Of a stretch of 64,000 nt of DNA, positions 20,071 to 25,092 are shown in pieces (position 1 is the first letter of the stretch; each line of letters opens with the position of its first letter). The stretch comes from Pseudomonas sp. LS.1a. Its GTDB lineage: Bacteria; Pseudomonadota; Gammaproteobacteria; Pseudomonadales; Pseudomonadaceae. The position numbers and the translations under genes were made by a program. The notes beneath the pieces were generated by a model. The model saw only the letters and a list, made by a program, of their open reading frames with translations, did not search any database and had not been told where the DNA came from. The stretch covers positions 4,752,001 to 4,816,000 of the forward strand of contig NZ_CP092827.1 of the NCBI RefSeq assembly GCF_022533585.1, given 5' to 3'.

Positions 20071-20275
20071 TGGCCTCTTCGCGGGCACGCCCGCTCCCAC
20101 AGGTACGCCACCGCATCCGAAATCTGCGCAATGCCTGTGGGAGATTGCCCAGCCCTTGGCCTGCACTGTCGCGTAGATAAATGAAATTGCGAGCAATCCC
20201 ACAGGGCCCCTGCTAACTCAATGAGTTATGGGCAGTTCTATGAAAGGAGCGTGCCCGCGAAGAGGACCGCCCCAG
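20071..20275. repeat. Cluster of partial REP elements
   Basis: One good REP copy (TGGCCTCTTCGCGGGCACGCCCGCTCCCACAGG, opening at the first base of this span) and degenerate copies in inverted orientation near 20131-20210 and 20250-20275 (GTGCCCGCGAAGAGG). The rest of the span shows no gene. It forms the left border of the accessory islet. Confidence 0.7.
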
Positions 20276-20280
20276 GCAAC

Positions 20281-20415
20281 CTAGCTGCAAGCCTTTAACG
20301 CCTGCTCGACATCCGCCAGCAGGTCCTCCACATCTTCCAACCCCACCGACAAGCGCACCAGCCCCTCCGATATCCCGTGATGCGCCCGCTCCTTCGCAGT
20401 ATGGCTGGAGTGCGT
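20281..20415 (-). pseudogene. Orphan 3' end of an mdeA allele
   Basis: Read on the minus strand this encodes THSSHTAKERAHHG...ADVEQALKACS followed by TAG: the last 44 codons and stop of a methionine gamma-lyase gene with no promoter, start or body. Compared with the intact mdeA end at 22201-22335, 39 of 44 residues are identical and a 95-bp core (20299-20393) differs at only two positions (20335 and 20340), while the last 18 bp differ at 8 positions. Homology stops abruptly above about 20418. It is a direct repeat of the intact gene end, bracketing the bacteriocin islet. Confidence 0.9.
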
Positions 20416-20418
20416 AAT

Positions 20419-20664
20419 GCATCGCCCAGCCTGCCTTGATGCGCCCAAGCAGCAAGATCCTACAAATCATCAGGTGTGGTCCTACACCCTGTTTGGCCGC
20501 TCTTCTGACATACAAAAAAGTCGTCATTAGGCACACTATAAAAACATTCAGAACGGCCTATGGCATAAGAATATTGAAACACCCTCTCATGTCCATTCGC
20601 GTAACCAAGAGCGCTCGCAGGGCTTCCCTACTGAAATTTTCAATAACCCACTCAGAGATGACAT
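20419..20664. other. AT-rich upstream region of the bacteriocin gene
   Basis: Visibly AT-richer than the core genome. A TATAAA box near 20537-20542 could be a -10 element for the bacteriocin gene, but no well-spaced -35 was found. I looked for an SOS box (CTGT-N8-ACAG type) and a pyocin P-box and saw no convincing match. The ribosome binding site before ATG 20665 is weak (GAGATGA). Confidence 0.4.
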
Positions 20665-21483
20665 ATGAGTATTGAACTTCCGGCTTTGTATATCTATCCA
20701 AATAATTACGGCACAAGTCGTCCTAATGGCTTACAAACACCACACCCCGCAGCCATGATAGGTCGTGCCATTGAGGAGCGTAGCGCTGGCTATGCACAAG
20801 GCCACTGGAGGGAAATGCTAAACCTGCATCTTCCTAAAATGCAGTACACCCGTCCCATCGCTTTTACGCTTGACGGTTTCCTGATTCGTGAACTCAAAGC
20901 TGGGTCTGGTGCAGACGCAATAATGCTGGCCAATTCGAGCATCAGTATTCCAGATGCTTGGAACAAAGCATTTGAGTACACCAAAGAAAATCTTGATACT
21001 GCCCCCTTAGCTCAACCTATTGAATTTTCTGGGGGGTGGTTCACTCCGTTCAGAGCAATTGCACACTGGCTTTTAGGGAAAGGGCAGCAGGCTAAAGTCA
21101 ACATAAACAATATAGGCATCGCACCCGAATTGCATAAAATTCCTCAACTACAGGCAACATTCGCTAGAGCAAGCGCAGGCACTAGTCGGATTGATGTCAC
21201 CTTCCCATATAACACAGGCATGGATAGTAATATATCACGCATCTACCTAGGTTCTATTACCCTACGAGTTATTGGCGACCTGAATAAGGGTAGTGACGGA
21301 AAGCTCATTTTCGTCGGTGTGGTTCGCGCCTATTCGGATAAATATGATGCAAATGCGAGCAGCCACCGCGGCGGCTTCGACGAGAAAGCCACGACACTGC
21401 TTCGTGAAGTTGGGCGCGTTGCAAATGCACAAGACTACGAAATTCTAATTGAAGGCGACCTACCGCTAAACATAGCAAATTAA
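20665..21483 (+). CDS. Colicin-M-like bacteriocin (lipid II phosphodiesterase)
   Basis: A 272-residue protein without a signal peptide. Near its C-terminus it carries DKYDANASSHR at residues 225-235 (bases 21337-21369), an exact match to the DxYDx5HR signature of colicin M, whose catalytic residues Asp226, Tyr228, Asp229, His235 and Arg236 fall one position later. Known members cleave undecaprenyl-pyrophosphate-linked peptidoglycan precursors in the periplasm of susceptible relatives. A C-terminal catalytic domain of about 120 residues is preceded by a glycine/aromatic-rich region expected to bind a receptor and cross the outer membrane. Codon use and base composition are AT-richer than the flanking genes. 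No lysis gene is present, as is usual for pseudomonad bacteriocins. The next gene encodes its probable immunity protein. Confidence 0.88.
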   Translation: MSIELPALYIYPNNYGTSRPNGLQTPHPAAMIGRAIEERSAGYAQGHWREMLNLHLPKMQYTRPIAFTLDGFLIRELKAGSGADAIMLANSSISIPDAWNKAFEYTKENLDTAPLAQPIEFSGGWFTPFRAIAHWLLGKGQQAKVNINNIGIAPELHKIPQLQATFARASAGTSRIDVTFPYNTGMDSNISRIYLGSITLRVIGDLNKGSDGKLIFVGVVRAYSDKYDANASSHRGGFDEKATTLLREVGRVANAQDYEILIEGDLPLNIAN

Positions 21484-21576
21484 TGGGAGGCCGCGACAAC
21501 GAAGCGCAGCACGGGCGACACCATTGAATTGGCTTTTATTCTATACTATCTTAGCCCACTGAATTCAAGGTGGATT

Positions 21577-22002
21577 ATGAATATCTCGAAAACGCTCTGT
21601 ACAGCCACGGCCTCAGCCTTGAACGTAATTGCAACAGCACTATTGTTTAGCGCTTCGGAAGCTGCGCTCGAAAACCCTGGTGACCCGTATGACACTTCAG
21701 GCATACCCGCGTTATCGATGTATATAGTACTGCTAATAATTTCTACCACATTTTCAGTATTTTTCATGCTTGGAGGAACGATAGCAAACAAGCTGCTCAC
21801 TGGCAAACTACCCAAGGCCATCAGACTTTTTCTTGAATTTATCCCAACTTTCGCGACAGCAACTCTTGGTATTTTTGTTTCCTTCGCTTACACCGACAAC
21901 ACAATATCGATGAACATGACTGCGCTTATTTATTTCCTATCAGCCGGATTCTCACTTGCTACTGCGATTTTTCTTCAAAAGAAACCCAGGAAGCGGACCT
22001 GA
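21577..22002 (+). CDS. Probable immunity protein for the colicin-M-like bacteriocin (four-TM)
   Basis: A 141-residue integral membrane protein with four predicted hydrophobic helices (about residues 5-27, 44-68, 83-103 and 111-131) and a basic C-terminus KKPRKRT. Start ATG 21577 has AAGGTGG four bases upstream; the longer frame to 21529 is less likely. It lies 93 bp downstream of the colicin-M-like gene, same strand, with the same low GC. I recall that small polytopic membrane immunity proteins have been described for Pseudomonas colicin-M-type bacteriocins. Assignment is by position and topology; I recognise no diagnostic motif. Confidence 0.7.
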   Translation: MNISKTLCTATASALNVIATALLFSASEAALENPGDPYDTSGIPALSMYIVLLIISTTFSVFFMLGGTIANKLLTGKLPKAIRLFLEFIPTFATATLGIFVSFAYTDNTISMNMTALIYFLSAGFSLATAIFLQKKPRKRT

Positions 22003-22138
22003 CTATCAGGTTCTCGGCTGCAACAGTGGCGGCCTGATCATCAGGAACCGTATGCTCTACGACATTGACGATACGCCGTTGTTTGCTCTCTCTTCGGGCG
22101 ACCACACCATTGACATCAGCTTTGCACCACCTAACTAG
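21989..22138 (+). pseudogene. C-terminal remnant of an unidentified gene
   Basis: An open frame overlapping the end of the immunity gene encodes about 49 residues (GSGPDYQVLGCNSGGLIIRN.. to ..HTIDISFAPPN, then TAG) with protein-like composition and GC-richer codons than the islet. It has no own start or ribosome binding site that makes sense, and looks like the tail of a larger gene truncated at the islet border. Source gene not recognised. Confidence 0.4.
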
Positions 22139-22200
22139 CTTGATGTCAGCATCCAGTGATGCCGTAACGGTTTTTGCCGCGAAGAGAGAGCTTCGGCAAT

Positions 22201-23397
22201 TTACCTACACGCGTCCAGCGCCTGCTCGACATCCGCCAGCAGGTCCTCCACATCCTCCAGCCCCACCGACAAGCGCACCAGCCCCTCCGATATCCCGTGA
22301 TGCGCCCGCTCCTGCGGCGTATAGCTGGAATGGGTCATGCTCGCCGGGTGCTGCGCCAGCGACTCGGCATCGCCCAGGCTCACCGCCCGGGCAAACAGTT
22401 GCAGGGCATTCATGAACCTGCGCCCGGCCTCGATACCGCCCTTGAGCTCGAAGGCGATCATCCCGCCCGGCAAACGCATCTGCCGCTGCGCCAGCTCGTA
22501 CTGGGCAAACGTCGGCAACCCCGGGTAGTGAATCAGCTCCACCTGCGGCTGCCGAGCCAGAAACTCCGCCACCTGCTGGGCATTGGCGCAATGTCGGTCC
22601 ATGCGCAGGGCCAAGGTCTTGATCCCGCGCATCAGCAGCGCTGCGTCGTGGGGTGACAGGACCGCCCCGGTCATATCCTTCAACCCTTCCAGGCGGATAC
22701 GGTCAATCAGCGCCTTGCGTCCCACCACCAGGCCGGCAGTGATATCACCGTGGCCACTGAGGTACTTGGTCGCCGAATGCACCACCAGGTCCGCTCCCAG
22801 CTCCAGCGGCCGCTGCAGGTAGGGCGTGCAGTAGGTGTTGTCGACCACCACATGTACATCATGCCCGCGCACCGCCTCGGCCACCGCGGCGATATCCACC
22901 AGTTGCATGTTGGGGTTGGCCGGCGTTTCGAAGTAGATCATTCGTGTTTTGCTGTTGATCGCCGACTTCAGGGCCTTGGCATCGTTCAGGTCGACATGGC
23001 GGATTTTCACGCCGAATTCGCCAATGCCATGGTGCAGGAAGGCAAAGGTGCAGCCATACAGCGTGCGCCCGACGATCAGCTCGTCACCGGGCCGCAGCAG
23101 GGTCCAGATCGTCGAGGTAATGGCCCCCATGCCCGACGCCAATGCCAGCCCCGCCTCGCCGCCCTCCAGCGAGGCCATGCGCTGTTCCAGCAGGGCCAGG
23201 GTCGGGTTGGAGATGCGGCTGTAGAAATGGCCGGGCTCCTCCCCTGCGAAGCACGCAGCGCCGTATTCCACGGTGGGGAAGGCATAGGTAGCGGTCTGGT
23301 ACACCGGCGGCACCAGGGCGCCGCCGTGGGAAAGCGGGTCGTAGCCATGGTGAATGGCCCGTGTGGAAAAACCGGTGTTGTTATGGGAGTCGCGCAT
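22201..23397 (-). CDS. mdeA: L-methionine gamma-lyase
   Basis: PLP-dependent enzyme splitting L-methionine into methanethiol, 2-oxobutyrate and ammonia. The 398-residue product follows the P. putida MdeA sequence closely as I recall it, including RAIHHGYDP at the N-terminus, Tyr114 and Cys116 in LYGCTF (Cys116 distinguishes the lyase from related Cys/Met enzymes), and the PLP lysine Lys211 in HSATKYLSGH. O-succinylhomoserine sulfhydrylase is the alternative label, but Cys116 favours the lyase. Divergent from the Lrp-type mdeR. Its 3' end is repeated at 20281-20415, and the mdeB gene described downstream of mdeA in another P. putida strain is absent. Confidence 0.93.
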   Translation of the reverse strand: MRDSHNNTGFSTRAIHHGYDPLSHGGALVPPVYQTATYAFPTVEYGAACFAGEEPGHFYSRISNPTLALLEQRMASLEGGEAGLALASGMGAITSTIWTLLRPGDELIVGRTLYGCTFAFLHHGIGEFGVKIRHVDLNDAKALKSAINSKTRMIYFETPANPNMQLVDIAAVAEAVRGHDVHVVVDNTYCTPYLQRPLELGADLVVHSATKYLSGHGDITAGLVVGRKALIDRIRLEGLKDMTGAVLSPHDAALLMRGIKTLALRMDRHCANAQQVAEFLARQPQVELIHYPGLPTFAQYELAQRQMRLPGGMIAFELKGGIEAGRRFMNALQLFARAVSLGDAESLAQHPASMTHSSYTPQERAHHGISEGLVRLSVGLEDVEDLLADVEQALDACR

Positions 23398-24100: not shown

Positions 24101-24625
24101 CTATGGAAAATCATGAGGAATGCTAATCAACGGACGTGGAATTGGCGGATATATCTCTGGGTAAATTTTTGGTTTTTCGGGTATCCGTCCCGGCACGAAA
24201 CCAAACCGCGCCCATCGAACCTCTGCATTGCGTCCATCAAAAATCAAGATATTGCCAGTGTCGGTTACGTTGAGATAATTATTCTCCCAATAGGATCTAT
24301 CAAGTGTTTCCGTACTCGCTGCGGCCCACAGTCGCTCGCGAGCCGGGTCATACAGAAAACCAGAATTACTGACGACGAACTGCAGCGGTTCACGCTTCTT
24401 GGTATGGAGCGTATAACTATATGCCTGCCTTTCGTCTGCGACCCAGATAACGGAGCCATTCTCTTCTAGGACCAGGTTTCCATCGTGCCGGAGACGAAGC
24501 AGAAACCTGCCGCTGCGGGACCTGATGAATTGTCCCGGCTGCATCGCCTCATTTGGAGGAAGCAATTCGCCTCCAGAATTCTGAAACGGCTTGTATTGAA
24601 TCTTCCGATATTTACTCTTCCCCAT
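24101..24625 (-). CDS. Single-domain B-lectin (monocot mannose-binding lectin fold) protein
   Basis: A 174-residue protein without signal peptide or membrane helix. Residues 30-140 form a bulb-type lectin domain of three pseudo-repeats: FLLRLRHDGNLVLEENGSVIW, then LQFVVSNSGFLYDP...LW, then NYLNVTDTGNILIFD...VRWA. Only the first keeps the D-x-N-x-V core (Asp48, Asn50, Val52) of the QxDxNxVxY sugar pocket; the flanking Gln and Tyr are Arg and Glu. A proline-rich tail of about 30 residues follows (PEKPKIYPEIYPPIPRPL). LlpA/putidacin L1 bacteriocins use two such domains, so this may be a related lectin or its relic. AT-rich, ATG 24625 preceded by GAGG. Confidence 0.7.
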   Translation of the reverse strand: MGKSKYRKIQYKPFQNSGGELLPPNEAMQPGQFIRSRSGRFLLRLRHDGNLVLEENGSVIWVADERQAYSYTLHTKKREPLQFVVSNSGFLYDPARERLWAAASTETLDRSYWENNYLNVTDTGNILIFDGRNAEVRWARFGFVPGRIPEKPKIYPEIYPPIPRPLISIPHDFP

Positions 24626-24909
24626 TACAAACCTCGATTTCAAGAAAGTTAACAAGCCGTCTACCTAAGCTTGCAAGCCCATTTTCCTCGGAACCGCCCC
24701 TTATAAACAGCCAGAAATCCCCCCGATGGAACCAGTAAAAAATCTTACAGCCTAAGAAGATCAAGACCACATAAATTCCCGCAGACTCAACTTACAGAGC
24801 GCGAGATAATACCTACGCAAAACAGCACCAATACGATTGCAATCTTTAAAAACACCAACCTTGACTTGCGACAAAAGCAGGTTTCAGTCATCACCAGGAG
24901 ATCATATCC
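24626..24909. other. AT-rich intergenic region
   Basis: Low-GC spacer between the divergent lectin gene and the small lipoprotein gene. It probably holds promoters for both, but none is assigned. No repeat or RNA gene seen. Confidence 0.45.
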
Positions 24910-25092
24910 ATGAAACATCTGACATTACTCAGTGTCCTGCTGTTATCAGGGTGCAGCGGTGAGCGCCCCCTAATACTTCCTGACCGTGAGCATGAAAAAT
25001 TCAGCTGTGATATGGACCCCTACAAACAGGGGTGCGAACGGATGAAAGACTACCAAGAGCACTTCCGACTGATAAAAACACCCGTGAAGTGA
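24910..25092 (+). CDS. Small predicted lipoprotein of unknown function
   Basis: A 60-residue protein: signal peptide MKHLTLLSVLLLSGC with lipobox LSGC (Cys15) and a polar mature part with two further cysteines (FSCDMDPYKQGCERMKDYQEHF). AGGAG lies nine bases before the ATG, supporting expression. No family recognised. The Cys pair separated by eight residues could form a disulfide in the periplasm. It is on the border between the AT-rich accessory stretch and the core cys genes. Confidence 0.6.
   Translation: MKHLTLLSVLLLSGCSGERPLILPDREHEKFSCDMDPYKQGCERMKDYQEHFRLIKTPVK

Follow-up and report, generated by a model that had tools for sequence, protein, structure and literature searches.

A colicin M-type bacteriocin-immunity pair inserted beside mdeA, and a lipoprotein gene linked to llpB, in Pseudomonas sp. 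LS.1a

Results

A colicin M family gene is followed by a gene for a four-helix membrane protein

We analysed a stretch of 64,000 nucleotides (nt) of Pseudomonas sp. LS.1a (contig NZ_CP092827.1, positions 4,752,001 to 4,816,000), hereafter the window. It carries a gene for a 272-amino-acid (aa) protein of the colicin M (ColM) family, here called the toxin, and, 93 nt downstream on the same strand, a gene for a putative immunity partner. The features of the pair are:

20665-21483, + strand: pseuM-type gene for a 272-aa colicin M family bacteriocin (Pfam PF14859, fold match)
21337-21369, + strand: catalytic signature DKYDANASSHR, residues 225-235 (DxYDx5HR pattern)
21577-22002, + strand: pmiA-type gene for a predicted immunity protein of 141 aa with four transmembrane helices (hydropathy, AlphaFold model, homologues beside the toxin)
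21691-21708, + strand: PmiA motif DTSGIP, residues 39-44, fitting D[T/S]xGxP, with helix 2 beginning at residue 45 (sequence; PMC5277000)

The Pfam profile Colicin_M (PF14859) matched the toxin with 269.2 bits (cut-off 27) over residues 5-268. The initial annotation had recognised the protein by its signature, which is indeed found at residues 225-235 and is the only DxYDx5HR among the 127,996 residues of the six-frame translation of the window; because the profile covers residues 5-268, the toxin is more than a chance motif. The distance of the motif from the N terminus, which the initial annotation put within one residue of that in colicin M, probably agrees with the colicin M numbering. The predicted fold matched PaeM, syringacin M and colicin M in a structure comparison, with the lowest predicted local distance difference test value of the model (56) at residues 231-240. 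The signature is exact in 21 of 26 alignment rows, that of the window included, and five rows (L011, L012, L014, L016 and L017) have a degenerate motif in which His is replaced by Phe or Trp, or Tyr by Phe. The AT-richness of both genes was likewise confirmed: the toxin gene has a G+C content of 47.1% and its downstream neighbour one of 43.9%, compared with 62.2% in the window as a whole. Neither the toxin nor the partner matched NCBIfam at E values up to 1, PADLOC gave no match to the toxin, the partner or the lectin described below, and ARAGORN found no tRNA gene in the window.

The partner has 141 aa when translated from the ATG at 21577; a start at the TTG at 21529 would give 157 aa. Hydropathy revealed the four hydrophobic segments expected from the initial annotation, and the AlphaFold model placed helices at residues 5-29, 45-73, 80-104 and 110-134. 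Genes of the PmiA type are described as lying downstream of the toxin gene, on the same strand and less than 200 nt away, and as coding for proteins of about 137 aa with four helices and the motif D[T/S]xGxP ahead of the second; their G+C content is low (Ghequire et al., 2017; PMC5277000). Position, strand, spacing, size, topology and motif of the partner all agree with this description, and a review of ColM bacteriocins gives the same arrangement of toxin and immunity genes (PMC5821083). The pair also resembles the PaeM, PflM and PsyM pairs (PMC5277000) in its full-length Colicin_M domain, exact catalytic motif, low G+C content and chromosomal location, these being found at variable sites. 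It differs from them in that the toxin shows 28-31% identity with PaeM and PsyM by structural alignment, and in its location between yhcB/zapG and mdeA, which is not among the sites named in the available text of PMC5277000. The ColM catalytic fold and motif are shared with the colicin M-Cmi system of E. coli, but Cmi is a periplasmic protein of the YebF type encoded on the opposite strand (PMC5277000), whereas the partner is a four-helix membrane protein encoded on the same strand. The pair thus belongs to a described kind: it is another PseuM-PmiA pair.

A protein database search returned five relatives of the partner, 71-99% identical, of which P0001 probably represents the partner itself. 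A PmiA match was present in 15 of 398 genomes of the genus; in 12 of the 14 other than LS.1a the gene directly follows a ColM gene, and in G050 the two genes are on different contigs. G015 has a PmiA homologue (L037; G015:C1:3094327-3094647) and no ColM match, and this possible orphan immunity gene resembles the orphan immunity genes of PMC5277000. The motif is kept in 16 of 19 rows of a partner alignment. Seen from the toxin, 31 of the 398 genomes, LS.1a included, had a match. We inspected 29 toxin loci from the 30 other genomes, leaving out G116, and found a downstream open reading frame with at least three predicted helices at 25 of them. G363 combines a ColM toxin gene, the pmiA belonging to it and a single-lectin gene in a stretch of 2.6 kb (L097:14112-16707), and a further lectin gene is 12 kb away.

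The receptor-binding half of the toxin has full-length relatives

The initial annotation had described a colicin M-like bacteriocin with a four-helix membrane immunity protein, which stands, and a receptor-binding half without relatives and with a possibly new target range, which our results do not support. A search of the protein database found 24 relatives of the toxin at E <= 0.001. Thirteen align over 99-100% of the query, with identities of 51-99%, and one cluster (P0006; 99% identity, 50 member sequences) is probably the window protein's own. In our alignment, identities are 47-90% for relatives spanning the whole protein and fall to 32% among more distant ones; a start of the type xELPxxxxYPDxYGTSR is common to most rows of the close group. 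Scanning the genome contigs with the single protein gave no confirmed relative, whereas a scan with the alignment gave 17 toxin loci. Agreement with PaeM begins at position 16 of the family profile and, in the toxin model, at residue 3. The N-terminal half is not an orphan. Its predicted fold is shared with ColM pseudocins that target FiuA, the receptor of both PaeM and PflM (PMC5358913); hence FiuA, or a close relative of it, is our best guess as the receptor of the toxin.

Proposed working of the pair

It is highly probable, in our view, that the two genes form a bacteriocin-immunity cassette of the pseuM-pmiA kind that works in the following way, with release, receptor, import, lipid II cleavage and immunity modelled on studied relatives. 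The toxin would most likely be set free by lysis of a few producer cells and would attach to related Pseudomonas through a TonB-dependent siderophore receptor. It would then be pulled into the periplasm, where the C-terminal ColM domain is predicted to cut lipid II between undecaprenol and pyrophosphate through the DxYDx5HR residues, so that wall synthesis would stop. PmiA, in the inner membrane of the producer, would protect it.

Several results weigh against this assignment. The strict D[T/S]xGxP motif was found downstream in only 11 of the 29 toxin loci, and four of the 29 show no downstream frame of the kind described above. The partner reaches no Pfam or NCBIfam cut-off, and its assignment to PmiA is therefore based on homology, topology and position together with a short motif. 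A promoter search gave no convincing candidate: the stretch 20400-22250 contains four promoter-like sites where 2.1 are expected, and the sole one on the toxin strand lies inside the toxin gene. Together with the decayed gene fragment that forms the left flank, this would suit a silent cassette, with intact genes that have lost expression or activity. We regard this as very improbable, since both reading frames are intact, the signature residues are kept and the protein's own cluster comprises 50 sequences. Somewhat less remote, though still unlikely, is a ColM bacteriocin whose receptor half aims at a new receptor, giving a target range unlike that of the FiuA-using pseudocins. In a single-sequence phmmer search of the PDB, only residues 82-271 aligned significantly to solved ColM proteins, no significant match beginning before residue 82, and for some other ColM pseudocins, in which the N-terminal half is long or unrelated, a different receptor is expected (PMC5821083). 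Against a new receptor stand the conservation of the N-terminal half in the full-length relatives, its agreement with PaeM in both model and profile, and the use of FiuA by PaeM and PflM.

The cassette lies between two copies of the mdeA 3' end

The surroundings of the pseuM-pmiA pair comprise the following features:

20249-20426, no strand assigned: displaced copy of the mdeA 3' end with intergenic edge, forming the left border of the insert (92.1% identity with genome G390, where the site is empty)
22195-22340, no strand assigned: right repeat copy, the 3' end of intact mdeA, with the last ~25 nt changed
22201-23397, - strand: mdeA, methionine gamma-lyase, the host gene beside the insert (NCBIfam NF005695, 816.7 bits)

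The repeat (20275-20420 and 22195-22340) measures 146 nt at 88% identity and corresponds to the mdeA 3' end, of which two copies now flank the cassette (20427-22194; 47.0% G+C). The left copy (20249-20426) is contiguous with the DNA of the yhcB side; a short segment close to its inner end has been lost (repeat families D1 and D7). That this copy continues the yhcB side while an intact mdeA stands on the right indicates that the cassette entered at the mdeA 3' end, and we infer recombination within mdeA on one side of the insert. The cassette would have arrived between yhcB/zapG and mdeA by horizontal transfer, duplicating the mdeA 3' end on entry. No ColM or PmiA gene was found at this site in seven relatives (L090-L096); yhcB/zapG directly adjoins mdeA in six of them, and an empty site was seen in three close relatives. 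The gap that holds the cassette in the window is filled otherwise in G015, by a gene for a 902-aa pyruvate-dehydrogenase-like protein (L096:5633-8341, +). Positions 20144-20248 of the window, ~100 nt next to an inverted repeat resembling repetitive extragenic palindromic (REP) elements, are missing from the G390 empty site.

Elsewhere the toxin has other neighbours. Within the ~1.5 kb of flank seen, mdeA was not beside the toxin gene in 29 relatives, and the 17 loci of the alignment scan showed no mdeA, yhcB or llpB within the stretch seen. A plasmid search with the cassette DNA returned 49 records, of which the best 20 matched only through the mdeA ends and none through the cassette. A literature search returned no paper combining colicin M, methionine gamma-lyase and Pseudomonas.

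An llpB-like gene and a lipoprotein gene lie beyond mdeA

Past mdeA and its regulator, a second stretch of low G+C content (47.4%) holds two further genes:

24101-24655, - strand: llpB-like gene for a predicted single B-lectin bacteriocin, likely starting at the ATG at 24625 (half match to NF033557; relatives)
24910-25092, + strand: gene, divergent from llpB, for a 60-aa lipoprotein that carries a CX8C motif and is a candidate for LlpB immunity

The llpB-like gene matches only the first half of NF033557 (115 bits; cut-off 275) and scores 19.4 bits with B_lectin (cut-off 32.4); its size and site fit LlpB. A Pfam B_lectin search of genomes was uninformative, as it gave no match in LS.1a itself or in control genomes. 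As in published LlpB (PMC6465234), cysN is a neighbour and the G+C content is similar (48.3%, against ~47% in print), and a single putative B-lectin domain would be followed by a C-terminal extension. Unlike in that account, a conserved lipoprotein gene stands on the opposite strand beside llpB, and the available text of PMC6465234 does not mention it. At most three of 33 members of the lipoprotein family had a Pfam or NCBIfam match (best E 0.0062), and the named ones among 80 database relatives are called hypothetical protein, one also Lipoprotein. Literature searches covering titles and the starts of abstracts, with subscription papers outside their scope, gave no report of such an LlpB partner; PMC6465234, PMC6240691 and PMC10135246 were opened among the papers mentioning LlpB.

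The lipoprotein gene is linked to llpB and persists after its loss

Sixty-nine genomes had a lectin match. The best-matching 40 served as the set of LlpB loci, which comprises that of the window and 39 others. Twenty of the remaining 29 genomes, which have open frames of 279-339 aa, supplied the LlpA loci. A scripted pattern (a lipobox, then CxxDP-C, within 1000 nt) detected the lipoprotein at 32 of 39 LlpB loci and one of 20 LlpA loci; in 455,549 background bases it matched twice, at the window itself and, again, at the LlpB locus of G015. With a profile, the lipoprotein was found at all 39 LlpB loci, including eight outside the building of the profile, as against one of 20 LlpA loci and one of 72 background loci (G015 again). 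These controls make chance placement beside llpB unlikely. In G336, a family lipoprotein gene lies downstream of the LlpA-type gene, on the opposite strand (L178:2894-3046, -).

At all 39 loci the lipoprotein gene is opposite in strand to llpB. Twelve loci are at cysN, eight convergent and four divergent, the latter being the arrangement of the window; 24 are at an amine oxidase gene (identified as such in L148), all convergent, and at three neither flanking gene was seen. Over whole genomes, the profile matched 45 of the 69 lectin genomes: all 40 LlpB genomes, G290 and G367 (with broken single-lectin genes), G336 (beside LlpA), and G089 and G215 (elsewhere). The other 24 gave no profile match; they include G363, although it carries a single-lectin gene of a more distant kind (36% identity, 201-aa frame), as well as G065 with its remnant of llpB. 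Among the 329 genomes without a lectin match, 160 were examined and 14 matched, three of them weakly (E 6e-4 to 9e-4).

By a rough criterion, llpB is broken or partial at nine of the 39 loci (L096, L157, L165, L168, L169, L171, L173, L174 and L175), and the lipoprotein is complete in all nine. Where llpB is intact, 27 of 30 loci pass the scripted lipoprotein test; L158 is degenerate, and the near-lipoboxes LFAC and TSGC of L146 and L151 do not fit the scripted pattern. The lipoprotein was also seen without an intact llpB there in 16 genomes, in 19 stretches (L196-L203, L205-L207 and L222-L229; three genomes twice). The flanks align with LlpB loci in 13 of the 16, indicating the same site, and G364 and G125 retain an llpB-like remnant.

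Discussion

Linkage on the opposite strand at two sites and in two arrangements, together with survival after loss of llpB, is what an immunity gene would show. Since lectin-like bacteriocins have been described as needing no immunity factor (PMC6240691), this makes the lipoprotein a candidate LlpB immunity protein. We lean slightly towards a dedicated protector of LlpB, an opposite-strand CX8C lipoprotein of 45-70 aa that would shield the producer at the cell envelope. It also seems possible that the lipoprotein acts in release or in another function tied to LlpB. A lysis protein of the colicin type was set aside, because the gene has the opposite orientation to llpB and is retained where llpB is missing. 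If the protector reading holds, for which the balance is again just favourable, the region would hold two bacteriocin modules, the second of them against the published rule that no immunity factor is needed.

The ColM pair adds one divergent couple to the PseuM-PmiA family and shows clearly that such a cassette can settle next to a metabolic gene, the 3' end of which now occurs in two copies. The link between llpB and the lipoprotein, a side result, weighs more. The target and killing step of LlpB are still open in the available text of PMC6465234; if the lipoprotein does protect the producer, this class of lectin-like bacteriocins would have an immunity partner after all, and that partner would point to both.
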